A stretch of 64,000 nucleotides of DNA from Synechococcus sp. M16.1. GTDB taxonomy: Bacteria; Cyanobacteriota; Cyanobacteriia; PCC-6307; Cyanobiaceae. The translations under genes and the position numbers were made by a program. A model generated the notes under the pieces. That model did not search any database. It was not told the origin of the DNA and worked only from the letters and a program-made list of their open reading frames with translations. This document shows, one piece after another, positions 29,421 to 44,374 of the stretch (its first letter is position 1; every line of letters begins with the position of its first letter). The DNA lies in the NCBI RefSeq assembly GCF_014279895.1, contig NZ_CP047954.1, positions 1,922,001 to 1,986,000 of the forward strand, in the 5' to 3' direction.

Positions 29421-32198
29421 TCAAACCCCCACCGGATCGAACACCAGGGCATCCGTGCCGGCCTCCCCCAGCCGCACCGTCACGCCACTGGCTCCGGCAA
29501 AGCGCTCCTCAAGCAGCAGCGTGGAGAGCGGATTTTCCAGCTGGCGGCGCAGCACCCGACGCAGCGGCCGCGCCCCGTACTCCGGTTCATGGCCCTGACG
29601 GGCCATGGCCTCAGCGACAGCATCGTCCACCTGAAGGGCAAGACCCTGCTCGGCCAACAGAGCAGCGAGGTCCTTCAGCTGCAACTGAACAATCCGCACC
29701 AGATCGGAGACTTCCAACGGACGGAAACGAATCACCTCATCGATGCGGTTGAGGAATTCAGGCCGGAACTGGCTTGAGAGCGCTGCATCCACCTGCTGTT
29801 GCAGGGCTGACTCATCCGTGGATCCCGAGCGGGCATGCTCAAGGATCGCCGGGCTGGCCAGATTGCTGGTCATCACGACCACGGTGTGGCGGAAATCAAC
29901 GGTGCGGCCCTGGGAATCGGTGAGCCGGCCGTCATCCAGCACCTGCAGCAGCAGGTTGAACACATCGGGATGGGCCTTCTCCACTTCATCGAGAAGCAGC
30001 ACCGCATAGGGACGACGCCGCACGGCCTCCGTGAGTTGCCCCCCTTCCTCGTAACCGACGTAGCCCGGAGGAGCACCGATCAGCCGGGCAACAGCGTTCC
30101 GCTCCATGAACTCGCTCATGTCGAGGCGAACCAGCGCCTCCTCTTCATCGAACAACGACCCCGCCAGCGCCTTCGCCAGCTCGGTCTTACCGACGCCGGT
30201 CGGCCCCAGGAACAGAAAAGAACCCACCGGTCGACGGGGATCCTTCATGCCGGCCCTGGCCCGGCGGATGGCAGCAGCAACGGCGGACACCGCCTCACCC
30301 TGACCAATCACCCGTTCGGCGAGATGAGCGTCGAGATCCAGGAGTTTGCGCCGCTCGCCCGCCAACAGCCGCTGCACGGGAATCCCGGTCCAACGAGCCA
30401 CCAGATCAGCGATGTCACCGGCTTCCACCTGCTCGCGAAGCAGAGCCGTTCCAGCGGACTGGGCCTCCGCCTGGGACGCCTCCAGTTCATCCCGGCGCTG
30501 CTGCACCCGATGCAGCTGGTCGTACTGGAGGCGAGCCGCTTCCTCCAGATCACCATCCCGCTCGGCCTCAGCGATGGCGTGGCGCAGGTCTTCATCCTGC
30601 TGAAGCAGCTGGCCGAGCTCCTCGAGCTGACCGCGCTCCTCCTGCCAGCGCCGCCGCAGATCTTCGAGTCGCGTGGACACTTCAAGCCGGTTGCGTTGGA
30701 GCTGAATCCGCTCCGCTTCAGGGGCCTGCTCGGCAGCGAGCAAGGCCAGTTCAACGCGGCGTAGATCTGCTTCGGCCTCCTCCACCACCTGCGGCTTGGA
30801 GGTGACCTCCATCTTCAGTTGTGCGGCCGCCTCATCGATCAAATCAATGGCTTTGTCCGGCAGGCAGCGATCACTGATGTAGCGGTCGGCAAGACGGTTG
30901 GCGGTCTGAATGGCCTCATCGGTGATGGTGACGCCGTGGTGCAGCTCGTAGCGCTCCTTCAAGCCGCGCAGAATTTCGAGGCTGAGCTCCAGATCCGGCT
31001 CGCGGATCACCACCTGCTGGAAGCGGCGGTTGAGGGCCGGATCCTTTTCCACCGTGAGCCGGTAATCCTCCGGCGTGGTGGCACCGATGCAGCGCAGGTC
31101 TCCCCGGGCCAGAGCTGGCTTCAACAGGCTGCCGGCATCGGTGCTGCTGCGATCGCTGCCAACAACGGTATGCAGCTCATCGATGAACAACACCACACCG
31201 GAATCGGAACCACTCACCTCCTCGAGCACCGAGCGCAAGCGTTCCTCGAACTGACCACGGAACTTGGCACCGGCGATCAAAGCCCCGAGGTCCAGCGCCA
31301 CCAGCCGCAGACCTTGCAGCGACTCCGGCACTTCACCCGCCACGATCCGCTGCGCCAGCAGCTCTGCAATCGCTGTTTTGCCAACACCGGGTTCACCGAT
31401 GAGCACCGGATTGTTCTTGCTCCGGCGCGACAGCACCTTGATCAGGTTGCGAATTTCAGAATCGCGACCGATCACCGGATCCAGGCTGCCTGCTTCCGCC
31501 TCTTCGGTGAGATCCCGCCCATAGGACTCCAAGGCCGAGGGGGGCTCCTGCAGGGGGGGCTCAGGGGCGGGCGACTGGGGGGTGACAGGGGAGGCGACAG
31601 GCTCCGGCCCGCTCAGCGCACGGGAGGAGGAGGGAACGCGCGCCACCCGTTCACGGCGGGGCGCTTCCTGCTGCACCTCCGGCTGAGCCCGCGGCATCGA
31701 GCGTTCTTGGGGAGGAACGGTCATGCCAGGAACCCGGTCATCCATGCCCCGTTGGATCAGCTGCTCCAGGGCATCGGCCGACAAACCAAAGCCGGCAAAC
31801 AGATCAGCGCCGATCCGCGGATCGGCACCAATGGCCATCAGCACTTCCGGCAGATCGATGACGTCTCCATTCCAGCGCCGACGGATGGCATCAGCCGAAT
31901 CGAGCAGCTGTTCCAGGTCATCACCGATGAAGAGCTCATCGCCTCGCCCCGAAGGCTGATCAGCCAGCACATCCTCCAAGCGATCCAAGAGCGCATCGAT
32001 GGGGAGGGGCAAGCGCTCCACCAAGCGGCGGCAGGCGGGATCGGTGAACAGCACCTGAATCAGGTGCTCCACATCCAACTGCTCATGGCGCCAGCGACGG
32101 GCAACGTCCTGACCACTGAGCAGCAGATCCCAGGCCGCGTCGCTGAAGCGATCCGGCTCATGGGTGAGGCTGCCGTTCAACGCTGGCGATGAAGTCAT
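29421..32198 (-). CDS. clpB: ClpB-type AAA+ chaperone, ClpB2-like
   Basis: HSP100 disaggregase family, 925 residues. An N-terminal Clp repeat domain (to about 150) is followed by an unusual Pro/Glu-rich linker of about 70 residues, then D1 (Walker A GEPGVGKT, Walker [11 protein letters not shown]), a coiled-coil M domain ([17 protein letters not shown]... [12 protein letters not shown]) and D2 ([28 protein letters not shown]). The D1 pore loop reads [12 protein letters not shown], with Phe where ClpB normally has Tyr. Together with the linker, this suggests the essential ClpB2 type of cyanobacteria rather than heat-shock ClpB1. That assignment is inferred. Confidence 0.9.
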
Positions 32199-32206
32199 CC
32201 GGTTCT

Positions 32207-32605
32207 TCAGGCGTGGGCTTTGGAGGACATCTCGATCAATTCCACCTTGTAGCCATCTGGATCCTCAACAAAGGCGATGACTGTGGTGCCGTGCTTCATC
32301 GGACCAGGTTCCCGCACCACACGACCACCCTTATCGGCAATGCCAGAGCAGGTGCTGTGGATGTCCTCCACCCCCAGCGCGATGTGGCCATAGCCATCCC
32401 CGAGGTTGTAGCTGTCGGTGTCCCAGTTGTGGGTGAGTTCGAGGACCGTGTGGTCGCTCTCCGAGCCATAGCCAACAAAGGCCAATGTGAAGCGGCCGCT
32501 GGGGTAATCCTTTCGACGCAGAAGCTGCATGCCCAGGACCTCGGTGTAGAAGCCCAGAGACCTCTCCAGATCAGCAACCCGGAGCATGGTGTGAAGCATC
32601 CGCAT
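32207..32605 (-). CDS. gloA: Lactoylglutathione lyase (glyoxalase I)
   Basis: Detoxifies methylglyoxal as its glutathione hemithioacetal. The 132-residue VOC-fold protein has the metal ligands expected from the family: His near the start ([18 protein letters not shown]), Glu in TVLELTHN, His in GYGHIALGV and Glu in GYKVELIEM. The length matches the short Ni2+-dependent bacterial type. It lies 8 nt before clpB on the same strand. The divergent eno gene starts 112 nt away. Confidence 0.95.
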
Positions 32606-32654
32606 GGGTGAGCGTCGTGCAGCGTGAACCTGCCGTCATTCTGGCCAGGTATGA

Positions 32655-34010
<1,356 letters not shown>

Positions 34011-34031
34011 TCCCAGGCCCCCGACGAACGT

Positions 34032-35684
34032 TCAACGGTTGGAACCGGGCAACTGCTCCAACCGTTGATCACGACGGATCTTGACCTGCATTCGGAACCA
34101 GCCCAAGCCCACCGGCAACGCAGCAGCAGCCGGAAGAAGTGACCAGAGCGGGCGGGCACTGGCACCTACAATGGCGGTGGCCAAAGCCAGGCATCCGAGC
34201 AACACCGATTGGCCGATCGATTGCTGGGCCAGGGCCATCCGACGGAACTGACGATCCGATTCGCCCAGCCGCACCTGGAGCTGAAGATCCCCCTGCTCCA
34301 GACGTTCCAGACTTTCATCCAAGCGCCGCGGGAAGGCAGCAGCGCGGCTGCTGAGAGCCCCGACCTGACGGCCGAGTTCGTTGAACAGATCGTTGCTGCC
34401 GGAGCCGCTGGAGGTCATGAGTGGAAGGAGATAAGGCTTGGCAATCGCCACCAAGCTAAAAGCGGGATCAAGGCTGCGGCCAACACCCTCGAAGGTGGAC
34501 AACGCCCGCATCACGAAGATCAGCTCAACCGGCAGACGAAAGGGCTGTCCATAGACCAGGTCGTAGAGATCGCCGGAGAGTTTGTCGATCACGTTGGCCG
34601 TGAAGGGTGGGGTGAGGGCCTCCTGCAGCATCAACCGCACGAGACGGCGCACCGGACCCACATCAATGCCGCCGGAGATCACACCGGCCGCCTGCATCTC
34701 CTCCACCAATGCCGCTGAATCTCTCGCAGCAGCAGCGCGGACCATGGCTCCCAGACGTCGACGCAAGCCGTCCGACAACAACCCCATCATCCCGAAGTCG
34801 TAGTAGATGAGCGCTCCATCACTCGCCACGGCGAGGTTGCCGGGGTGGGGGTCGGCATGGAAGAAACCAAACCTCACCAACTGCTTGAGATAACTGGCTG
34901 CACCCACCTCAGCCACCGCGGCCGGATCAACGCCGGCTTCAAGCAACGCCTCACGGTCGTTGACCTTGATGCCGGGCAGGTAGTCGAGGCAAAGCACACG
35001 GCGCGTGCTCAACTCCCAGACCACACCGGGGATTCTGATGCGTTCGTCATCCAGAAATTGCTGACGGAAACGAGCGGCGTACTGCGCTTCAACGCGGAAA
35101 TCGAGCTCACGCAGCAGCACACGTCGACATTCCCGTGCCATCGCCGGCCAATCCCGACCACGCCCCCAACTGGGATTGCGTTGCAGCACAGCTGCCACCT
35201 GCTGCATCACCTCCAGATCAAGGCGAAACAGGCGATCGAGCCCAGGGCGCTGCACCTTGAGCACCACCTGCCGGCCACTGCGCAGGCTGGCGCGATGCAC
35301 CTGGGCCAGCGAGGCTGCACCCAGGGGTTCGGGATCCAGATCGATCACCTCGGCACAGCGTGGCCCAAGCTCTCGCTCGAGCACGGTCTGCACCTGATCA
35401 AAACTGAAGGCCGGAACGCTGTCTTGCAGCGCTGCCAGTTCGGCCACCCAACCCGCGGGGAGGATGTCTGGGCGGGCGGAGAGCAGTTGCCCCAGCTTGA
35501 TGAAGGCGGAGCCCAGAGACAGCAACTCAGCCGTCAACCAACGGGCTCGCTGTTGCTGACGGCGGGCACGACGCTCGGCGGTGACACCTCCGCGGTAGGT
35601 CCAGGACTGGCCATCCCACCAAAGCAGCAGCAGCAACGTCAGGACAGCGCGCCAGATGCGGAGCGCTCGCAGCAGTCCCAGCAT
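34032..35684 (-). CDS. ABC1/UbiB family atypical kinase
   Basis: A 550-residue protein with the KxGQ motif (FIKLGQLLSARPDILP), the Ala-rich nucleotide loop (EPLGAASLAQVHRA), the ion-pair Lys (VVLKVQRPG), the catalytic HADPHPGNL and the metal-binding YYDFGMMG. The family supports quinone or tocopherol metabolism and lipid homeostasis in cyanobacteria and plastids, though the direct substrate is unknown. Two C-terminal hydrophobic helices (SVLLGCLALATAIVGAS and the LLPAAAALPVGLG region) suggest a membrane anchor. The start overlaps the stop of the upstream small gene by 1 nt (TGATG). Confidence 0.92.
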   Translation of the reverse strand: MLGLLRALRIWRAVLTLLLLLWWDGQSWTYRGGVTAERRARRQQQRARWLTAELLSLGSAFIKLGQLLSARPDILPAGWVAELAALQDSVPAFSFDQVQTVLERELGPRCAEVIDLDPEPLGAASLAQVHRASLRSGRQVVLKVQRPGLDRLFRLDLEVMQQVAAVLQRNPSWGRGRDWPAMARECRRVLLRELDFRVEAQYAARFRQQFLDDERIRIPGVVWELSTRRVLCLDYLPGIKVNDREALLEAGVDPAAVAEVGAASYLKQLVRFGFFHADPHPGNLAVASDGALIYYDFGMMGLLSDGLRRRLGAMVRAAAARDSAALVEEMQAAGVISGGIDVGPVRRLVRLMLQEALTPPFTANVIDKLSGDLYDLVYGQPFRLPVELIFVMRALSTFEGVGRSLDPAFSLVAIAKPYLLPLMTSSGSGSNDLFNELGRQVGALSSRAAAFPRRLDESLERLEQGDLQLQVRLGESDRQFRRMALAQQSIGQSVLLGCLALATAIVGASARPLWSLLPAAAALPVGLGWFRMQVKIRRDQRLEQLPGSNR

Positions 35685-35995
35685 CAGGGACGCGCCTCGA
35701 TCGCTTGGCTCAGATCAGCCACCTTGGCCCGAAGACGATCGATCACCGCCTGAGGACTCTCCGGCGGTTCCGACGAGGACGCCCCATCCGTGCTCATCGG
35801 AGCCGAATCACCCCGTTCGATCCGTTCCGCCTCAGCACGCACCTCGTCTTGAAACAGATCCCATTCCTGGCGCAGCCGTTGCGGGGCATCTTGCGCCAAC
35901 ACCGCCAACTCGGCGGCCGCGTCCGCAAAGCCGTGACCAAGGCGCGCACTGATGCGGTTCACCGTGGCGCGTATCAAGGCCTCCGACGAGCCCAT
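35684..35995 (-). CDS. Small conserved protein of unknown function upstream of the UbiB kinase
   Basis: A 103-residue acidic, soluble protein. The N-terminal helix-forming part is ALIRATVNRISARLGHGFADAAAELAVLAQDAPQRLRQEW, followed by a Ser/Pro-rich linker and a C-terminal helix (VIDRLRAKVADLSQAIEARP) that could form a coiled coil. No family recognised. Its stop overlaps the UbiB-family start (TGATG), so the two are almost certainly translated from one mRNA; it may be a partner or assembly factor of that kinase, which is inference. Confidence 0.75.
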   Translation of the reverse strand: MGSSEALIRATVNRISARLGHGFADAAAELAVLAQDAPQRLRQEWDLFQDEVRAEAERIERGDSAPMSTDGASSSEPPESPQAVIDRLRAKVADLSQAIEARP

Positions 35996-36040
35996 GGACC
36001 GATTGCAGAGAGCTTCGACTGTGGCAGATCCAACCGGAGA

Positions 36041-36670
36041 TCAGGGCTGAGGCGGGGTCATGGGCTCAATGGCTTCGAAAAAGGCTTCCGCGCCAGGCGG
36101 CAGCACCAAAGGGTCCGGCTCAGCCACCAACACCGGTGAATCACCGCCTGGAACAACAACAGCAGGCATCACCTCAATGGACTCCTCAGGAAGCACCAGG
36201 GAATCAGCGTTGCTGTCATCAAGCTCAGGTCCAGGCTCCTGGGCGGATGAAGGGGCGGGTCCGTTGTCGCCCTCCATCTCGGGGGCAATGGTTTGGGGGT
36301 CCGACCAGGCTGGGGCCGTCCAGACCTGGGGTTCGGGCGTCTGCAGCGCCACATCGGGTTTGGGTGTCTCCTTGACCACTGGTTTGGCCGCTGGCTGGGC
36401 CGGTCGGCTCGCAGCCTCCAAGGCTGAGACATCCACTTGCAGGGATGGATCCTCGTCACTGAACCGGGCCCGAATCTCCTGCAGGGAATCCCCTGGAAAC
36501 GCAAGTGGTGTGAAGGCCTCAGGGACAGGGTCCTGAGCATTGGTCTGCAGCGTCAGCACCCGCTCGGCGATGCCGTAACCAAGGGCGAAACAACAACCAG
36601 CCACCAGTGGGCCCACCCAGAAACGTGCCTTGGTCTCAACGGGAGCGTCAGGGGAGCTGGAATTGTCCAC
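36041..36670 (-). CDS. Membrane-anchored Pro/Glu-rich protein of unknown function
   Basis: A 209-residue protein with one transmembrane segment near the N-terminus (FWVGPLVAGCCFALGYGIAERVL), then a long low-complexity stretch rich in P, E, A and D (AAKPVVKETPKPDVALQTPEP). No enzymatic motif is present. It lies on the argJ strand, and its ATG is 51 nt after the displaced argJ 3' end at 36722. Before the cassette arrived, argJ was probably its immediate upstream neighbour. Coding is supported by codon bias and strand order; function is unknown. Confidence 0.65.
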   Translation of the reverse strand: MDNSSSPDAPVETKARFWVGPLVAGCCFALGYGIAERVLTLQTNAQDPVPEAFTPLAFPGDSLQEIRARFSDEDPSLQVDVSALEAASRPAQPAAKPVVKETPKPDVALQTPEPQVWTAPAWSDPQTIAPEMEGDNGPAPSSAQEPGPELDDSNADSLVLPEESIEVMPAVVVPGGDSPVLVAEPDPLVLPPGAEAFFEAIEPMTPPQP

Positions 36671-36721
36671 GGATGGGTCTGACGGAGACTCGGATTGTGA
36701 CAGGGATCCAGAACAGAAGCT

Positions 36722-36749
36722 TCAGGTGGTGTAGTCGGCGTTGATGCGC
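36722..36749 (-). repeat. Displaced argJ 3' end, distal direct repeat of the cassette
   Basis: On the minus strand the sequence encodes RINADYTT followed by TGA, the same C-terminus as intact argJ (RINADYTT, TAA). The DNA match is 20 of 21 nt (36729-36749 against 38999-39019), in the same orientation. Upstream of it the similarity to argJ stops abruptly. It marks the far edge of the A+T-rich cassette. Confidence 0.85.
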
Positions 36750-36885
36750 CAAGTAAAAATTTGATCAACGCGAACATTCTCTAAAGGGAGAACAAGGATG
36801 AGAAAAGAGCGAGCTTCAGCAACCTTTCAATCAAAGCAAAGGGACAAAACATCTACGAGGAAAGCCTTTTCTTACCCTGATTTTA

Positions 36886-37830
36886 CTAATAAGAATTCGA
36901 ACGCATATCATTACTTATGGCTCCTAAAGTGTTCTTTCCGGTCACAAATGAGCCTAGCTGTAATAGAGAGTATTTTAAGTTTTCAAGCGCCCGAGCCAAA
37001 GGCGTATTAAGCTGATAAATGGCATTACCTCTTGAACGATTAGGAGCTCTCATCAAGGATTTAAAAATTCTAAAAGAAATAGACTTCGGCGTGGAAGTAA
37101 ACTTGGTCTGCAATGATGCGTTCAGAGGAAAGTAGTGAGAAGTCAAAGACTTCCTTGAAAAAGAGTTGTCTTTCACTTTACTTGCCCCATGTATTGTGCA
37201 GGAATTCCAGACAACGAGATCGCCCTTTTTTAAAATCAGTTCCCGGCAAGGAAAATCTTGCTTTACTTGTTGAATAATTTTTATAAAATCATCATGAGCC
37301 AATTCTTGAATTTTATAAGCTTCAACTATTTTATGAGATCCCGGATAGACCCTAAAGGGACCAGAATGAGGATGAATATCTTCAAGCGCAATCCAAGCCC
37401 CAACGAGCGCCCCTTTTGGATGTGTATCAAGATACCAGCTATCAATATGATCTACAGTCTCCATTGACTTGTCAAAAAGCATATTATTTTGCTGAACGAA
37501 TTTGCTGTAGTAAGGAAAAATTTTACGCAGATAATTCTCCATTTCCGAAGAAAGTAGCAATCGCGAAGAGAGTAGAGAAAGTTTGCCAAGAAATTTATTC
37601 CTAGCAAACCCCAACATCGATTCATCAATGAAACCATTAGCATCTATGCTTATTTTCTTATACCTATGCGTAGCTTGGGAATAGTAAAAGGGAGCAATTT
37701 TGGAGTTTTTTATTTTCTCAAGCTCTGCGACAATTGAATCAATTTGTGAAGCAGGAAAGGCATTTTTGATTACCACAAAGCCTTCTTTTAAAAACTCAGA
37801 ATTTAGCTCCCAATCTGCGCCTATATTCAT
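36886..37830 (-). CDS. Phytanoyl-CoA dioxygenase (PhyH) family oxygenase
   Basis: Fe(II)/2-oxoglutarate-dependent oxygenase fold, 314 residues from ATG 37830. The facial triad is visible as HID in METVDHIDSWYLD and a distal His in WNSCTIHGASKV. GPFRVYPGSHKIVEAY is the conserved PhyH turn, and an Arg follows (SFSRKSLTSHYFP) that could bind 2-oxoglutarate. The substrate is unknown; relatives hydroxylate lipids, amino acids or small metabolites. Codon use is A+T-rich, unlike flanking genes, and it lies in the argJ-bounded cassette. The C-terminal 80 residues (from SLMRAPNRSRG) are basic and not recognised. Confidence 0.82.
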   Translation of the reverse strand: MNIGADWELNSEFLKEGFVVIKNAFPASQIDSIVAELEKIKNSKIAPFYYSQATHRYKKISIDANGFIDESMLGFARNKFLGKLSLLSSRLLLSSEMENYLRKIFPYYSKFVQQNNMLFDKSMETVDHIDSWYLDTHPKGALVGAWIALEDIHPHSGPFRVYPGSHKIVEAYKIQELAHDDFIKIIQQVKQDFPCRELILKKGDLVVWNSCTIHGASKVKDNSFSRKSLTSHYFPLNASLQTKFTSTPKSISFRIFKSLMRAPNRSRGNAIYQLNTPLARALENLKYSLLQLGSFVTGKNTLGAISNDMRSNSY

Positions 37831-38032
37831 TTTCAAATTCTAATAATAGCATATGTAGTCAAATCAACGCAATAAGATTGATGTCCTTACACTTGGTGGG
37901 CTGCCGACCAAAACTTACTGACAGACCCACTACAGCAAGTTTGAGGTCCATATGAGACAAAAAAAGAGCCAGCACCATGCCCAAGCAAACAGCACTTCTG
38001 CATGATACTGTGATAAAAACAAAGAGACATGA

Positions 38033-38839
38033 ATGATTGGCAAACTTTTAGACGTTTATTCCCACTTTTTCGCAAAGGTTAAATTCAGAAAATTCAACAA
38101 ATTTCTTTTTCTCGCGGGAGCGAGAGGTCTTGGAATCCTTAATTACAAAACCTCCTGGGCAAGCGGTGAAGAACCATTTCTGAGGAGATTTCTTATGGAT
38201 TATGACAACTCAGACTCAATTGTTTTGGATGTAGGGGCGAATAAAGGCCAGTTTGCATCATGGGTGCTACGCAACTCTTCCAAGCTAAAGGTATTATCCT
38301 TTGAACCCAACCCTGCAGCAGCAGTCATTCTGAAGAAAAATATTGACTCAAGCAAACGACATTTGTTAATAGAAAAAGGCGTATCGAGTTCTATTAAAAT
38401 AGGAAAAATATACGATTACAGCAAAAATGCTGGGAGCGGACATGCATCTATGTATAACGAGGTCATTACTGAAATTCATAACCACAAAACTTTTTCAGAA
38501 ACCCCAATTGAACTAACAACCATTGACCATGAATTAGAAACACTTCCGACAAAAAGAGTATGCCTTCTCAAAATTGATACCGAAGGCCATGAAAAAGATG
38601 TCCTAATAGGCTCCAAGATCCTCTTATCATCGAACCCCCCCGCAGCAGTACTGGTTGAGTTCAATGAGATGAATGCGGTCAGCAACACACAATTCCGCAC
38701 AATAAAACAACTAATAGGTGATAAGTATATTCCCTATAGATTACTGCCAGGAGGCTCTCTCCTTCCTCTAAAAGGGCAATCACCTTTGTATACAGAGATC
38801 TATGCATATCAAAACCTTGTATTCCTAAGAGAAAACTAG
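38033..38839 (+). CDS. FkbM family methyltransferase
   Basis: SAM-dependent methyltransferase of 268 residues. VLDVGANKGQFASWVL is motif I, LSFEPNPAAAVILKKNI the acidic motif II, and LLKIDTEGHEKDVLIGS the FkbM signature. Members O-methylate sugars in capsule, LPS or glycolipids, or natural products; the substrate here is not known. It is divergent from the PhyH gene, with a 202-nt A+T-rich gap that can hold both promoters. Start ATG 38033 has AAAGAG upstream. It belongs to the same transferred cassette. A weak hairpin (AAAGGCC/GGCTTT, about 38954-38973) follows 115 nt downstream. Confidence 0.88.
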   Translation: MIGKLLDVYSHFFAKVKFRKFNKFLFLAGARGLGILNYKTSWASGEEPFLRRFLMDYDNSDSIVLDVGANKGQFASWVLRNSSKLKVLSFEPNPAAAVILKKNIDSSKRHLLIEKGVSSSIKIGKIYDYSKNAGSGHASMYNEVITEIHNHKTFSETPIELTTIDHELETLPTKRVCLLKIDTEGHEKDVLIGSKILLSSNPPAAVLVEFNEMNAVSNTQFRTIKQLIGDKYIPYRLLPGGSLLPLKGQSPLYTEIYAYQNLVFLREN

Positions 38840-38991
38840 AGGGACTAAATTTATCGAAGTGGCAATAGATTTGATTCAACAAATTCCTTCTAGCTACCTT
38901 TTGCATCTCCTATTCTTCAATATGGCTATGTAGTTTTTAATTTTAATGGGAATGAAAGGCCAAAAAAGGCTTTATAATATGTTTTTATGAA

Positions 38992-39019
38992 TTAAGTCGT
39001 GTAATCGGCGTTGATGCGC
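38992..39019 (-). repeat. Intact argJ 3' end, proximal direct repeat of the cassette
   Basis: Encodes RINADYTT and TAA at the end of argJ. 38999-39019 matches 36729-36749 at 20 of 21 positions, same orientation. This copy completes the functional gene, so the cassette appears to have brought or rebuilt the argJ end. Confidence 0.85.
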
Positions 39020-40194
39020 ACGTACTGATCCGATAGGTCACATCCCCAAGCCTGACCACAGCCGGGACCATGCCCCAAGCCGAGGCGAATCGGAACATGC
39101 TCCTGCTTCAAAACATTGCTGGCTGCAGCGCGATCAAAGGCCACGGGTTGACCAGCCGCCATCAGTTGATGGGGACCAATCCAAAGAGCAACCGCATCCG
39201 GATCGAAAGACACACCAGAGCGACCCGCGGCCGCCACGATCCGCCCCCAGTTCGGATCCCGGCCGTGGACCGCTGTCTTCACCAGAGACGAACCACAGAC
39301 CGTGCGCGCCACCTGCAACGCCGCGGCCTCGTCAACCGCACCCTCCACCTGCACCTCGATCAGACAGGTCGCCCCTTCGCCATCCCGGGCAATGGCCTGG
39401 GCCAGCTGTTGCATGGCCTGGGTGAGGCCCTGTTCCAGAACGGCATGGTGTTGTTGGGCCAGCGCTGGGCCTGCCGCAAACGCCAGCACGGTGTCGTTGG
39501 TGCTGGTGTCTCCATCCACGGTGATGGCGTTGAAGGAACGCTGCACCGCACGTCGCACCATCCCCTGCCAAACGCTGGCATCGATGCCGGCATCACAACT
39601 GAAAAAGCCGAGCATCGTGGCCATATCGGGATGAATCATTCCCGAGCCTTTGGCCATCCCTCCGATGCGCACCCGGCGCCCCTCCAGTTCCAGTTCGAGC
39701 GCCACCTGCTTGTCCACCAGATCGGTGGTGAGAATGGCGTTGGCCGCAGCATCACCCCCCGCGTCATCCAAGGCCTCCACCAAAGGAGCCAACCCGGCCA
39801 GAAGGGTGGGCATCGGAATCGGCACACCGATCACGCCCGTGGAGCAGATCAACACCGACTCCGCATCGACGCCAAGCTGATCGGCCAGCACCTGGGTGGC
39901 GCGCTGACTGTCGACCAGACCGCGATCGCCGGTGCAGGCATTGGCCTGACCGGAGTTGATCAACACGGCACGGGCCTGGCCGGCAGTACTGACGAGGCGA
40001 TCACGGCAGAGGTCAACACAGGCCGCCCGCACCACGGAGGTGGTGAAGGTGCCGGCACAAACGGCCGTCACCGGTGCCAACACCAGCGCCAGATCAGGCT
40101 TACCTGAGGGCTTAAGACCGGCAACGATGCCAGCGGCCTGGAACCCATTCGGTGCCGTCACACCACCCTGGATCGGTTGCCAAGAAGAAGCCAT
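38992..40194 (-). CDS. argJ: Glutamate N-acetyltransferase / amino-acid acetyltransferase
   Basis: Transfers acetyl from N-acetylornithine to glutamate in the cyclic arginine pathway, and may also use acetyl-CoA. ATG 40194 gives 400 residues. The self-cleavage and nucleophile site is the Thr in KGSGMIHPDMATMLGF. Other blocks are NSGQANACTGDRG, STGVIGVPIP and DGDTSTNDTVLAFA. The C-terminus DQYVRINADYTT is standard. The last 21 nt of coding sequence are repeated at 36729. The coaE gene is divergent, with a 50-nt gap between the ATGs. Confidence 0.96.
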   Translation of the reverse strand: MASSWQPIQGGVTAPNGFQAAGIVAGLKPSGKPDLALVLAPVTAVCAGTFTTSVVRAACVDLCRDRLVSTAGQARAVLINSGQANACTGDRGLVDSQRATQVLADQLGVDAESVLICSTGVIGVPIPMPTLLAGLAPLVEALDDAGGDAAANAILTTDLVDKQVALELELEGRRVRIGGMAKGSGMIHPDMATMLGFFSCDAGIDASVWQGMVRRAVQRSFNAITVDGDTSTNDTVLAFAAGPALAQQHHAVLEQGLTQAMQQLAQAIARDGEGATCLIEVQVEGAVDEAAALQVARTVCGSSLVKTAVHGRDPNWGRIVAAAGRSGVSFDPDAVALWIGPHQLMAAGQPVAFDRAAASNVLKQEHVPIRLGLGHGPGCGQAWGCDLSDQYVRINADYTT

Positions 40195-40244
40195 CGCCAC
40201 CGCTGATCCGCCGCGAGACACTGGGTGCATCCTGCTCCGACACC

Positions 40245-40871
40245 ATGGCGCCTGGCGAGCCGTTCTCGCAACGACGCATCGGACTCACGGGCGGGATTGC
40301 AAGCGGCAAGAGCAGCGTGGGCCATTGGCTGGCGCAGCAAGGGCTGCCGGTGCTGGATGCGGATCAATTCGCCCGAGAGGCCCTTGCACCCGGTCGCCCC
40401 GCCACGACCAGCGTGATCCAGCGGTACGGCGCTGGAGTCCAGGCTGAAGGGGGCGCAGCCGTCGACCGCGCTGCCCTGGGTCGGATCGTGTTCCAGGACC
40501 CCGCGGAACGGCGGTGGCTCGAGCAACTGGTTCACCCGATCGTGCGGGAGCGCTTCGACCAAGAACTCAGCCTCCATGCCAAGACACCAGCCGTTGTGCT
40601 GATGATTCCGCTGTTGTTCGAAGCGGGGCTGGAGTCGCTCTGCAGCGAAATCTGGCTGGTCGACTGCGATGCATCCCAGCAGCTCGAGCGCTTGATCGCG
40701 CGGGACGGGCTCAGCCCTGACGCCGCTCAAGCCCGCATTGCCGCCCAATGGCCCCTAAGCCGCAAACGTGGCTTGGCAGATCACGTTCTTGCCAATCGAG
40801 GCCAACCCGGCGCCTGGAAAGCCCAGGCGATGGGTCTGCTCAACGCGTCGCTGCCAGCAGATCCCGGTTAA
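40245..40871 (+). CDS. coaE: Dephospho-CoA kinase
   Basis: Last step of coenzyme A synthesis. ATG 40245 gives 208 residues. P-loop GLTGGIASGKSSV, LDADQFAREAL, the VHPIVRERF region, MIPLLFEAGLESLCSEIWLVDCDASQQLERL and a lid with Arg residues (DAAQARIAAQWPLSRKRGLADHVLANRG) are all as expected. An in-frame ATG at 40152 would overlap argJ. The TAA stop shares TTAA (40868-40871) with the stop of the convergent oxygenase gene. Confidence 0.95.
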   Translation: MAPGEPFSQRRIGLTGGIASGKSSVGHWLAQQGLPVLDADQFAREALAPGRPATTSVIQRYGAGVQAEGGAAVDRAALGRIVFQDPAERRWLEQLVHPIVRERFDQELSLHAKTPAVVLMIPLLFEAGLESLCSEIWLVDCDASQQLERLIARDGLSPDAAQARIAAQWPLSRKRGLADHVLANRGQPGAWKAQAMGLLNASLPADPG

Positions 40872-41689
40872 CCGTTCCTCCCGAAGTCGGCACGGAACCA
40901 CTTGGTGATCACCCATTTGTGGCCCGCCTGCACCGGCAAGGCCTCATGCAGCGTGAAGGGGTTGGGAGTGCCATCGGCCTGGAGGTTGTTCCAGGCCAAC
41001 GCCATTCCAGGCACAGGCGTGAACGAGCGCCCCAGGCGGCGGAACAACGTCTCTCCACCCCGCTCCACAGGGTTGAGATAAACCATCACCGTCCACGTGC
41101 GTTGCCCGCCACTGTCGGTATGGGTGGCGTATTCCTCCGTGCCCGGCATAAACCAATCCGTGTGTTCCTTGAAGTATTCGCCAGGGTCGTAGCGCTGCCC
41201 CTGAATCGGTTCCGAGAGCCGCGGATCCACGCCGAACAAGGCCGCAAAGCGCTGATCAAGGCTCGCCGCCAGCTGGGGATGGTTTTGGCGCAAATGACAG
41301 GTGCGACTGGTGCGGTAATCGCTGCTGCCGCGGGTCACCGTTGACGGCTGCAGTGACGTGTTGATGGCGTCGATCACCTGCTCGCATTCCTCGTGGCTGA
41401 GCAGCCCTGGCAGCTCGTAGACCTGGGCCAGCGACGTATCCAACCGCCAGGCGCGAGGCCGGTGCTCTGGCCGGGTGAGGGGGGACTCGAACCAGGCGAG
41501 CCAATCGGGCGATGGTGGGTCCGTGGTTGTGAGCCGAAGGAACGACGAATCGAGAACTGCCGCAATCGCCTCTTGCGCAAACCCCTGGTCGAGGGCCCGC
41601 TGCATCAAGCCTTGAGGATCACAGCCGCGATCCCGGTTCTGCAGCAGCCATTCCTTCCAGGCATCGGGAATGACTGCCGCTCCGCTCAT
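40868..41689 (-). CDS. 2OG-Fe(II) oxygenase, prolyl 4-hydroxylase-like
   Basis: A 273-residue protein with the P4H alpha-subunit fold: LSHEECEQVIDAI, RTSRTCHL, RYDPGEYFKEHTDWF (HxD of the iron triad), VMVYLNPVERGGETLFRRLG and ALPVQAGHKWVITKWFRADF (distal His and 2OG-binding Lys). An N-terminal region of about 90 residues with no known motif precedes it. The target may be a protein proline or a small molecule. ATG 41689 overlaps the gatB stop by 1 nt (TGATG), which suggests coupled expression downstream of gatB. Confidence 0.88.
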   Translation of the reverse strand: MSGAAVIPDAWKEWLLQNRDRGCDPQGLMQRALDQGFAQEAIAAVLDSSFLRLTTTDPPSPDWLAWFESPLTRPEHRPRAWRLDTSLAQVYELPGLLSHEECEQVIDAINTSLQPSTVTRGSSDYRTSRTCHLRQNHPQLAASLDQRFAALFGVDPRLSEPIQGQRYDPGEYFKEHTDWFMPGTEEYATHTDSGGQRTWTVMVYLNPVERGGETLFRRLGRSFTPVPGMALAWNNLQADGTPNPFTLHEALPVQAGHKWVITKWFRADFGRNG

Positions 41690-43170
41690 CAACCCTTGAG
41701 CTTCTTGCTCAGAATCTGGTTGGCGAGCTTGGGATCCGCCTTACCGCCGGTCTTCTTCATCAACTGTCCGACGAAGAAGCCCTGCAGCTTGGTCTTGCCC
41801 CCGCGGAAGGCCTCCACCTCATCGGGGTGGGCCCCCAACAGCTCATCAACGATGGCTTCGATCGCCGCCGGATCGCTGATCATGCCGAGACCGCGCTCGT
41901 CGACAATCGCCTTTGGTGAGCCGCCTTTCTCAAGCAGCTCCGGAAGGATCTCCTTGGCGATCTTGCCGCTGATCTTGCCGCCATCAATCAGTTGCACCAT
42001 CTCGGCCAACTGCTCCGGCCGGAAGGGCAGTTCGGCATAGCTGAGCCGATTGCTGTTCACGTGGGCGGCGATGTCGCCGGTAATCCAGTTCGCCGCAAGC
42101 TTGGCGTCAGCGCCGGCACCCACCACGGCCTCGAAATAGTCGGCCATCGGTCTCTCATCGGTGAGCACCCGCGCGTCGTACTGGGAGAGACCCAGCTCAT
42201 CGGCGTAGCGATGCCGCTTGGCCGCTGGAAGCTCAGGCAATTCAGCACGCCAGGACTCCCGCTGATCCGCGCTCACCTCAATCGGGCCGAGGTCGGGATC
42301 CGGGAAGTAGCGGTAATCGCTGGCGCCTTCCTTGCTGCGCATGCTCTTGGTGAGCTGCTTGCCCTCATCCCAGAGGCGGGTCTCCTGAACGATCGGCTCA
42401 CCGGTTTCGTAGGCCTTGATCTGACGCTTGATCTCGTACTCGCAGGCCTTTTGGATGGCCGAGAACGAGTTCATGTTCTTGATCTCCACCTTCGTGCCGA
42501 AGGGCGCATCCGGCCCCCGTCGCACGGAGATGTTGACGTCGCAACGCAGGGATCCCTCCTGCATGTTTCCGTCACTCACCCCCAGATACCGCATGATCCG
42601 GCGGATCTCCGAGGCGTACTCCGCCGCTTCACGGCCGGTGCGCAGGTCCGGCTTGCTGACGATTTCCGCCAAGGCCACACCGGCCCGGTTGTAGTCCACG
42701 AGCGAATGGGTGGAACCCGCCAGGCGGTCACTGCCGGCATGCACCAACTTGCCGGCGTCCTCCTCCATGTGCAGTCGTTCGATGCCGATTTTCTTGAGAT
42801 AGGTGTCCTTTCCCTTCTCCGCCACTTCCACCTCGATCCAGCCCTCCTCGGCGATCGGCTGGTCGTACTGGGAGATCTGGTAGTTCTTCGGCAGATCTGG
42901 ATAGAAGTACTGCTTGCGGTCGAACTTGCTGTGTTCGGCGATGTTGAGGTTCAACGCCATCGCTGCCTTCACCGCATACTCGAGCACCTTCTGGTTCAGC
43001 ACCGGCAATGTGCCAGGCAGACCGCACACCACCGGGTCGATATGGGTGTTGGGGTCATCACCAAAGGTGGTGGACGCAGCCGTGAAAATTTTGCTGTCCG
43101 TTCCCAGCTGCACGTGGGTCTCGAGACCGATCACGGCCTCCCAGGCCGGTTGGGTTGCTGCGTCGGCCAT
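41689..43170 (-). CDS. gatB: Aspartyl/glutamyl-tRNA amidotransferase subunit B
   Basis: Part of GatCAB, which converts Glu-tRNA-Gln (and Asp-tRNA-Asn) to the amide form. The 493-residue protein has WEAVIGLETHVQLGTDSKIF, KNYQISQYDQPI, EEDAGKLVH, VDYNRAGVALAEIVS, GSLRCDVNISVR and DYRYFPDPDLGPI, and a C-terminal YqeY-like tail domain (GKADPKLANQILSKKLKG). Full length. It is divergent from thiO (91-nt gap to the thiO ATG) and followed by the oxygenase gene. Confidence 0.97.
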   Translation of the reverse strand: MADAATQPAWEAVIGLETHVQLGTDSKIFTAASTTFGDDPNTHIDPVVCGLPGTLPVLNQKVLEYAVKAAMALNLNIAEHSKFDRKQYFYPDLPKNYQISQYDQPIAEEGWIEVEVAEKGKDTYLKKIGIERLHMEEDAGKLVHAGSDRLAGSTHSLVDYNRAGVALAEIVSKPDLRTGREAAEYASEIRRIMRYLGVSDGNMQEGSLRCDVNISVRRGPDAPFGTKVEIKNMNSFSAIQKACEYEIKRQIKAYETGEPIVQETRLWDEGKQLTKSMRSKEGASDYRYFPDPDLGPIEVSADQRESWRAELPELPAAKRHRYADELGLSQYDARVLTDERPMADYFEAVVGAGADAKLAANWITGDIAAHVNSNRLSYAELPFRPEQLAEMVQLIDGGKISGKIAKEILPELLEKGGSPKAIVDERGLGMISDPAAIEAIVDELLGAHPDEVEAFRGGKTKLQGFFVGQLMKKTGGKADPKLANQILSKKLKG

Positions 43171-43261
43171 GCGCCCGTGATGTGAAGCAGATTCCGGGAT
43201 CCTATGGAATCAGGATGAAGCCCTCTCCTGACACCATGACCAGCAAGGGCCTTTCTTGCGC

Positions 43262-44374
43262 ATGACTGCCGCCTCTGCCTCAGCCGTCTGTGTTTTGGGC
43301 GGGGGACTGATGGGCTTAGCCGTTGCCCATCAGCTGGCCCGTCGCGATCAGCGCGTGACCGTGATCAGCCGCCGCCGCAGCGAAGCGGCAGGCTTTGTGG
43401 CTGCAGGGATGCTGGCGCCCCATGCCGAAGGCTTGAGCGGCAACCTGTTGGAGCTGGGTCAAGCCAGCCTCGCGCTGATCCCCCGCTGGGTGGCGCAGAT
43501 CGAGGCGGACAGCGGCCTGAGCTGCGGCCTGCGCACCAGCGGCATCGTGGTGCCGTTCCGAACAGCGACCGAGCGGGACGCTTACCCCACCGCCAGCCTT
43601 GGGCAAACCCTGGACCGCACCGGCCTTGAGCGGGAAGTCCCAGGCCTGGGGCCGGAGTGGAGCACCGGGCTGCTGTTCGAGCAGGACGGCCAGATCGACA
43701 ACCGCAGGCAGTTGATGCGGGCCCTGGAGCGGGCCTGCGTGTCCCTGGGCGTGCAGTTCATGGAAGGGGCCGAAGTGCTTGATCTGGAGCGGGAGTCCGC
43801 CGGACAGCTCTGCGGCATCCATCTGCGCAGCGCCGAAGGAGAACAGCAGCAACTGCGCTGCCAGCAAGCCGTGCTCTGCAGTGGCGCCTGGAGCCAACAA
43901 CTGGTGCCGCAACTGCCCGTGTTCCCGGTGAAAGGGCAGATGCTGTCACTGCAGGGTCCGCGGGAGGCACTGAAGCGGGTGATCTTCGGCCCTGGCACTT
44001 ATCTGGTTCCACGCGAAGACGGATTGATCGTGGTGGGGGCCACCAGCGAACGGGACGCCGGATTTGCCGAAGGCCTCACCCCCGATGGCCAGAAACAACT
44101 GCAAGCGGGGATCGCCAGCCTGCTGCCAACAGCGGCCACATGGCCCCCGATGGAGCGTTGGTGGGGGTTCCGGCCCTGCACGCCCGATGAAGGCCCCTTG
44201 CTCGGCCCTGGTCCGCTACCTGGTTTATGGCTGGCCTGTGGGCATCACCGCAATGGCGTTCTGCTTGCCGCCATCACGGCTGAGCTCACGGCCGGCGGCG
44301 TCATGAAAAAAGCCCCCAACGCCGCCGAAGAGACGTTGTTGGGGGCATTCCGCTGGAACCGGTTCGAAAACTGA
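43262..44374 (+). CDS. thiO: Glycine oxidase / FAD-dependent amine oxidase (ThiO-like)
   Basis: DAO-family flavoenzyme of 370 residues that in thiamine synthesis oxidises glycine to dehydroglycine. VCVLGGGLMGLAVAHQLARR is the FAD-binding GxGxxG, AAGMLAPHAE the conserved turn, VFPVKGQMLSL the substrate region, and the end CGHHRNGVLLAAITAEL then LLGAFRWNRF matches the ThiO C-terminus. ATG 43262 is preferred over 43256. The coding 3' end also contains a terminator-like hairpin read on the opposite strand, placed for ndk. It is separated from the ndk stop by 4 nt. Confidence 0.88.
   Translation: MTAASASAVCVLGGGLMGLAVAHQLARRDQRVTVISRRRSEAAGFVAAGMLAPHAEGLSGNLLELGQASLALIPRWVAQIEADSGLSCGLRTSGIVVPFRTATERDAYPTASLGQTLDRTGLEREVPGLGPEWSTGLLFEQDGQIDNRRQLMRALERACVSLGVQFMEGAEVLDLERESAGQLCGIHLRSAEGEQQQLRCQQAVLCSGAWSQQLVPQLPVFPVKGQMLSLQGPREALKRVIFGPGTYLVPREDGLIVVGATSERDAGFAEGLTPDGQKQLQAGIASLLPTAATWPPMERWWGFRPCTPDEGPLLGPGPLPGLWLACGHHRNGVLLAAITAELTAGGVMKKAPNAAEETLLGAFRWNRFEN
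44306..44346 (-). terminator. Probable ndk terminator embedded in the thiO coding end
   Basis: On the minus strand GCCCCCAAC (44346-44338) pairs with GTTGGGGGC (44320-44312) as a 9-bp stem, followed by TTTTTT (44311-44306). A small inner hairpin (CTCTTCGGCGGC region) lies in the loop. It is 33 nt past the ndk stop and entirely within the thiO reading frame. Confidence 0.75.

Follow-up and report, generated by a model that had tools for sequence, protein, structure and literature searches.

The 3' end of argJ very probably constitutes an attachment site (attB) for mobile elements in picocyanobacteria, the argJ ends carried by these elements acting as attP and recombination within the core leaving ArgJ intact. 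This reading agrees with the gene-end-targeted insertion that an earlier note had proposed, and it is supported by empty sites, varied cargo and argJ-linked integrases in relatives. According to the proposed mechanism, an element would bring as attP an argJ end of its own, which encodes INADYTT and includes a stop codon, and recombine with the chromosome within a short core, which would amount to 15 nt in the case described below. The argJ end of the element would thereby be joined to the chromosomal gene, so that ArgJ stays intact and the old end is left downstream. Integration would be catalyzed by the argJ-linked recombinases, and elements devoid of an integrase would be moved in trans.

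The window, a 64,000-nt stretch analysed here, comprises bases 1,922,001-1,986,000 of the single 2.11 Mb contig of Synechococcus sp. M16.1. Its argJ gene (38992-40230, minus strand) is intact and ends with TAA at 38992-38994, and the PF01960 match of the 412-residue ArgJ extends to the final residue. The 21-nt repeat GCGCATCAACGCCGAYTACAC is found within argJ at 38,999-39,019 (minus strand; attL-like copy, GCGCATCAACGCCGATTACAC) and again at 36,729-36,749 (minus strand; attR-like copy, GCGCATCAACGCCGACTACAC), on the same strand and in the same frame with one C/T difference. A search of the 2,112,236-base genome allowing up to three mismatches retrieved no further copy, and a reversed control pattern gave none either. 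Hence, the repeat was described correctly in the earlier note except for its designation as the last 21 coding nucleotides: the last coding base of argJ is 38,995, and the final 21 coding nucleotides of the two copies differ at three places. The displaced original argJ 3' end (36722-36749, minus strand) reads RINADYTT followed by TGA at 36,722-36,724, so that the stop codons indeed differ.

The DNA between both copies (36750-38991, unstranded) is A+T-rich, as had been noted, and the cassette as a whole measures 2.27 kb. In 500-base windows lying wholly within the insert GC content is 36-40%, whereas windows ending or starting at its borders reach 63-64% and the remainder of positions 32,000-44,000 ranges from 59 to 69%. 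The two sizeable genes of the insert encode a PhyH-type dioxygenase (36886-37830, minus strand; PF05721, E 1.9e-24) and an FkbM-family methyltransferase (38033-38839, plus strand; PF05050, E 1.9e-14), neither of which matched a recombinase model, in keeping with the oxygenase and methyltransferase reported at first sight. PhyH had no match at E 1e-15 in the other congeners of a 300-genome sample, and FkbM had one weak match among 33 other congeners, at a different chromosomal location. Comparison of the cargo DNA with the 299 other family genomes yielded short and weak matches, two candidates per genome being scored in the rows listed and the longest match among these spanning 111 bases at 74% identity. 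That both genes are ancestral at this locus and were lost in relatives is hardly conceivable for the genomes examined given the missing PhyH matches, and the junction is uninterrupted in four relatives, which also speaks against it; no evidence in favor was found.

These four relatives represent the empty site. The right flank is marked by a conserved gene without Pfam family (36041-36670, minus strand), which adjoins argJ at empty sites, and by a likewise conserved DUF6825-like gene (35684-35995, minus strand; 25.7 bits against a Pfam cut-off of 27). In L003, an uncultured Synechococcus with an ArgJ identity of 98%, there is one argJ end with a TGA stop, and the homologue of the 36041 gene lies 55 nt past the last coding base. 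The displaced end of the window faces the same flank at the same distance, which identifies it as the old argJ end, as the note had claimed. L116, L117 and L121 are also empty, each with a single argJ end and with 55 nt between the last coding base and the homologue; hence, these four cassette-free relatives carry one copy and not two.

Comparison with L003 also indicates where strand exchange may have occurred. The displaced copy, whose 21-nt repeat does not differ from the argJ end native to L003, matches L003 over 31 nt, from GCGC through the core and the TGA stop to the AGC that follows; left of GCGC the sequence is foreign. On the other side, the argJ genes of window and L003 show no difference from 40 to 10 nt before the end but differ 10, 4 and 1 nt before it, and their stop codons contain one further difference. 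Taken together, these differences bracket the exchange within the 15-nt core GCGCATCAACGCCGA, and the terminal approximately 10 coding nucleotides of argJ plus its stop (38992-39004), which differ from L003, would be derived from the element. In L118, compared with the empty L116 and L117, the displaced copy seems to stem from the element in its left half and to be native in its right half; if the native allele assumed for L118 is correct, this comparison would narrow the exchange to about GCCGA.

A repeat of this kind could also have arisen without site-specific recombination, through an illegitimate or homologous event by which the argJ end was duplicated in tandem or as a segment. One locus, L020, looks like such an event: its duplicate takes in more of argJ on the left side and is hence read as a segmental duplication, no arm pair is visible, and the locus was rejected as a member of the elements described here. 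For the window we regard this origin as quite improbable, for its match to argJ ends at GCGC with foreign sequence beyond, and the same boundary recurs in other genomes with different cargo and adjoining integrases.

To appraise this recurrence, 60 regions downstream of argJ, mostly of single-contig genomes, were chosen from the 300-genome sample, 262 genomes of which had an argJ match; 19 regions belong to the genus of the window and 41 to other genera of the family, yielding 61 regions with the window included (L003 is outside this set). Taking a site as empty if the 36041 homologue lies at most 300 nt away, 30 regions are empty, 15 are filled and contain a displaced end, 11 are filled without one, and in five no 36041 homologue was found, two of which nevertheless carry displaced ends. 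ArgJ terminates with INADYTT in 60 of the 61 regions and with INAHYTT in the remaining one. The scan for displaced ends gave 21 matches on the sense strand, whereas the antisense strand yielded none, nor did equal lengths of DNA beyond abc1 wherever abc1 was located. Chance repeats were rejected on account of these empty controls and of the mere two copies in the window genome. Moreover, the distance to the 36041 homologue is that of empty relatives at 10 of the 15 displaced ends, for instance 55 nt in L113, L118, L119 and the window and 86-88 nt in L137 and L150, and the other five (L114, L120, L142, L148 and L172) have an extra 0.8-3.2 kb past the displaced end. Five congeners (L113, L114, L118, L119 and L120) harbor differing cargo at the site, as the note had foreseen. 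The 11 regions with extra DNA but without displaced end imply that the argJ neighborhood gains DNA by other ways too. No displaced end was seen in eight non-picocyanobacterial cyanobacteria, one of which (L048) has almost no downstream DNA.

Clustering of open reading frames from 47 chosen filled or large regions yielded a family of 14 integrases, fragments included. The five full-length members scanned matched PF00589, two of them below the Pfam cut-off, and integrase matches were also obtained in PHROGs. Judged by these profile matches, many argJ inserts encode one divergent family of putative tyrosine recombinases, the genes of type A, among them that of Synechococcus RCC307 (L148:11588-13114), mostly adjoining attR and those of type B adjoining attL. 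A profile built from 10 family members matched at least 44 of the 300 genomes at E values up to 1e-15, five candidates being scored in some of the genomes. The 19 best matches (E up to 5.4e-113) are all situated 120-191 nt from an argJ end although 10 of them were absent from the profile; thus, integrases adjoining argJ ends, for which the note had suggested a search, do occur in relatives. Among the 30 loci listed an argJ end is present in 22, with one mismatch to the codon pattern in L184 and L187, and at the type B loci L189 and L191 the adjacent end is that of argJ itself. The eight listed loci without argJ end comprise partial or broken frames of the family (L192 and L193) and weaker relatives or fragments. 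Of 28 integrases placed in a tree, 22 are argJ-linked and fall into two groups, one of 18 (support 84/79) and one of four (100/100); the other six are not argJ-linked.

In addition, several minor observations concern recombinases at or near this site. L212 (G126:C7) contains two stacked integrases, each adjoining a copy of the argJ end, which precede the conserved genes for DUF6825 and abc1. Related small serine resolvases accompany a tyrosine integrase in six argJ inserts (L120:3896-4543, L142:3257-3835 and four more). Two genomes belonging to one genus (L198 in G165; G134:C1:1379930-1381240) contain distant integrase relatives some 21-23 kb upstream of argJ. No tRNA gene lies within about 8-10 kb on either side of the distant relatives in L216-L220 and L223 or near those in 12 shorter loci, and in L221 one tRNA-Gly is found at about 4.4 kb.

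Many elements feature paired direct repeats with a period of 11 inside both ends, the same word being used in both arms. Together with the core, these pairs resemble att sites of the lambda type. Relative to the core, the arms are positioned at about +48 and -74 in type A and at about +72 and -95 to -102 in type B, with outliers at -86 (L145 and L230 element 3), +40 (L067) and -82 (L222). An arm test, passed with a score of at least 29/32 that no shuffle equaled, was passed by 18 of 33 elements in one set and by 13 of 27 in another, one element (L037, identical with L222) being common to both. L120, which encodes a complete integrase, scored just 25/32, equaled by four of 100 shuffles. The test is not exhaustive, as element 3 of L228, 94% identical to an armed element of L236, fails it; missing arms hence do not exclude membership of the class.

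Elements without integrase are stacked behind argJ at the named Prochlorococcus loci L034, L053 and L067 and in low-GC genomes (genus g56 and G052) whose nearest named argJ genes in the set are all from Prochlorococcus. Up to five elements are stacked (L230), many of them carrying one or two genes, and among Prochlorococcus-type stack elements the integrase profile matched L213 and L222 only. Matching arms are present in 17 integrase-less elements of 0.6-3.5 kb, six in the first set (two each in L170 and L034, one each in L067 and L053) and 11 in the second; L034 element 4 and L123, in which integrase fragments persist, were left out of this count. Their cargo includes cyanate lyase, a HupE/UreJ protein, a C5 methylase with an EcoO109I-like nuclease, a restriction helicase, an outer-membrane barrel and a methyltransferase. 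Thus, these genome comparisons lend good support to a class of passenger elements targeted to argJ, and the small passenger class suggested in the note is borne out by the integrase-less elements of Prochlorococcus and Prochlorococcus-like genomes; the window cassette, for which it had been put forward, shares their site and has neither integrase nor recognizable arms.

Single elements recur in different positions. A cyanate lyase element of 1.3 kb is the first in L236 and the fourth in L233, with 97.5% identity over 1,286 nt, whereas identity between the argJ 3' regions of the two genomes amounts to 88.6%. L038 element 1 and L227 element 3 are 88.9% identical over 861 nt at an argJ identity of 68.6%, though neither passes the arm test. 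In further pairs the excess over argJ is absent (L227 element 4 and L230 element 5, 86.1 against 88.5) or slight (L224 element 1 and L227 element 2, 89.8 against 87.7).

Some cargo deserves separate mention. Cyanate lyase makes up a one-gene integrase-less argJ element at L233:7132-7575 (minus strand; PF02560) and, by DNA similarity, in L236 element 1 and L228 element 3. The methylase and the EcoO109I-like nuclease form a restriction-modification pair in a 2.6 kb integrase-less element (L230:2665-4728). Proteins with a C-terminal DUF4214 are encoded in stacked elements at L224:2686-4176 and L233:3920-5158, and several other elements are similar in DNA to part of them, so that this cargo recurs. 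Defence models matched one of ten cargo proteins, a DNA methyltransferase.

Integron gene cassettes are likewise small units without an integrase of their own that are stacked at one site, but they are alike in outline only, since each argJ unit brings an argJ end. Nonetheless, argJ might be viewed as an integron-like capture locus, into which units of one or two genes with no more than core and arms (cyanate lyase, a HupE/UreJ-family protein, restriction-modification, an outer-membrane barrel, a methyltransferase) would be loaded in trans and successively by several argJ-specific integrases, which would read different arm codes around a common core located in a conserved coding motif of this arginine gene. 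The window cassette would then be one such unit. This reading as a whole falls slightly short of an even balance in our estimation.

With regard to the window cassette itself, the site, the core, the restored gene, the displaced end and an empty attB in relatives are shared with the elements described above, and neither recombinase nor arms were recognized. Its arm score of 24/32 was equaled by 14 of 100 shuffles, so the cassette is regarded as lacking recognizable arms, and its insert contains no other 8-nt repeat spaced by 11 with at least 7/8 matches. At E 1e-15 the integrase profile had no match in the entire window genome, in which partial or broken tyrosine recombinase frames are observed at C1:1,737,144-1,744,161, far from argJ. 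Under the proposed mechanism it would have arrived by the same route as the other elements and would now be either a passenger or a remnant without integrase and arms.

The latter possibility, that the cassette is the decayed remnant of an integrase-bearing argJ element and not a passenger in its own right, appears credible though not favored. Such decay is evident in congeners, as the integrase is broken in L118 (G197) and truncated in L123 (G234), and by eye L113 and L119 keep the attL arm only. Against this stands the absence of any integrase remnant in the window insert as judged by clustering and profile search. In addition, the displaced end is still identical to L003 over 31 nt, which is weak evidence of youth because the next 55 nt differ at only three places.

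Alternatively, the cassette could be the passenger of a third, unrecognized type of integrase with other arm sites. Two integrase groups with different arms already share the core, and the ends of the window cassette fit neither; but among the listed PF00589 and PF00239 matches in argJ inserts of 30 chosen genomes no third argJ-linked group was seen, these matches comprising the known family, small resolvases and one integrase of 213 residues (G193). A third type is thus considered unlikely.

Cargo elements of picocyanobacteria with tyrosine recombinases, termed tycheposons, were reportedly described by Hackl et al. in 2023 and are, to our knowledge, the nearest known elements in this group. 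Tycheposons are described as using tRNA genes, spanning 4-200 kb and encoding a tyrosine recombinase (PMC10872708). Compared by these descriptions, argJ elements agree with them in host group, cargo and type of recombinase but use a protein gene and can be as small as 0.6-3.5 kb without recombinase. The window cassette departs further from the description, its core being located in argJ coding sequence instead of a tRNA gene and its 2.27 kb lacking a recombinase. In freshwater Methylophilaceae, fGI-2 consists of additive islands marked by repeated tRNA-gene ends at tRNA-Lys; according to the same source, repeated copies of the last approximately 20 bp of the gene mark the island as they do here, while argJ differs in being a coding gene and in its arm-like repeats and linked integrase family (PMC10872708). 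It is established that tyrosine-recombinase genomic islands and prophages can integrate into a gene and restore it; they resemble argJ elements in the direct repeat of the gene end, the restored gene, empty sites and an integrase beside att in full elements (PMC12884075). The argJ elements differ from these by their target, by the many integrase-less and stacked elements, and by the window cassette without integrase.

Gene-end integration with restoration is therefore a known principle, and it is argJ as target and the stacks that were not found in the literature searched, outside Hackl et al.; neither was a family of integrases tied to argJ. Publications naming argJ together with integration site, tyrosine recombinase or Prochlorococcus did not look relevant by title and beginning of the abstract.

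The argJ system bears on the question of how streamlined picocyanobacteria exchange small adaptive genes, to which it contributes a defined address, a core with arm sites, a candidate family of enzymes and tiny elements that lack an integrase and carry niche genes such as cyanate lyase. Hence, horizontal acquisition becomes testable with two plasmids and cargo can be listed by reading downstream of argJ. Moreover, the argJ end may serve as a native integration site for the engineering of picocyanobacteria.

A relation of argJ elements to prophages was not apparent from pattern scans of viral contigs (IMG/VR), in which the core, searched as one exact pattern, was not found and two integrase peptide patterns matched 78 stretches, none of them a relative. 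One element of 11.1 kb (L145) encodes a phage-type single-subunit RNA polymerase beside its integrase (L145:2625-5093, minus strand; PF00940, E 2.7e-45; phrog_414, E 2.4e-136). Since seven other scanned proteins of this element had no PHROG match, it may represent a phage satellite or parasite.
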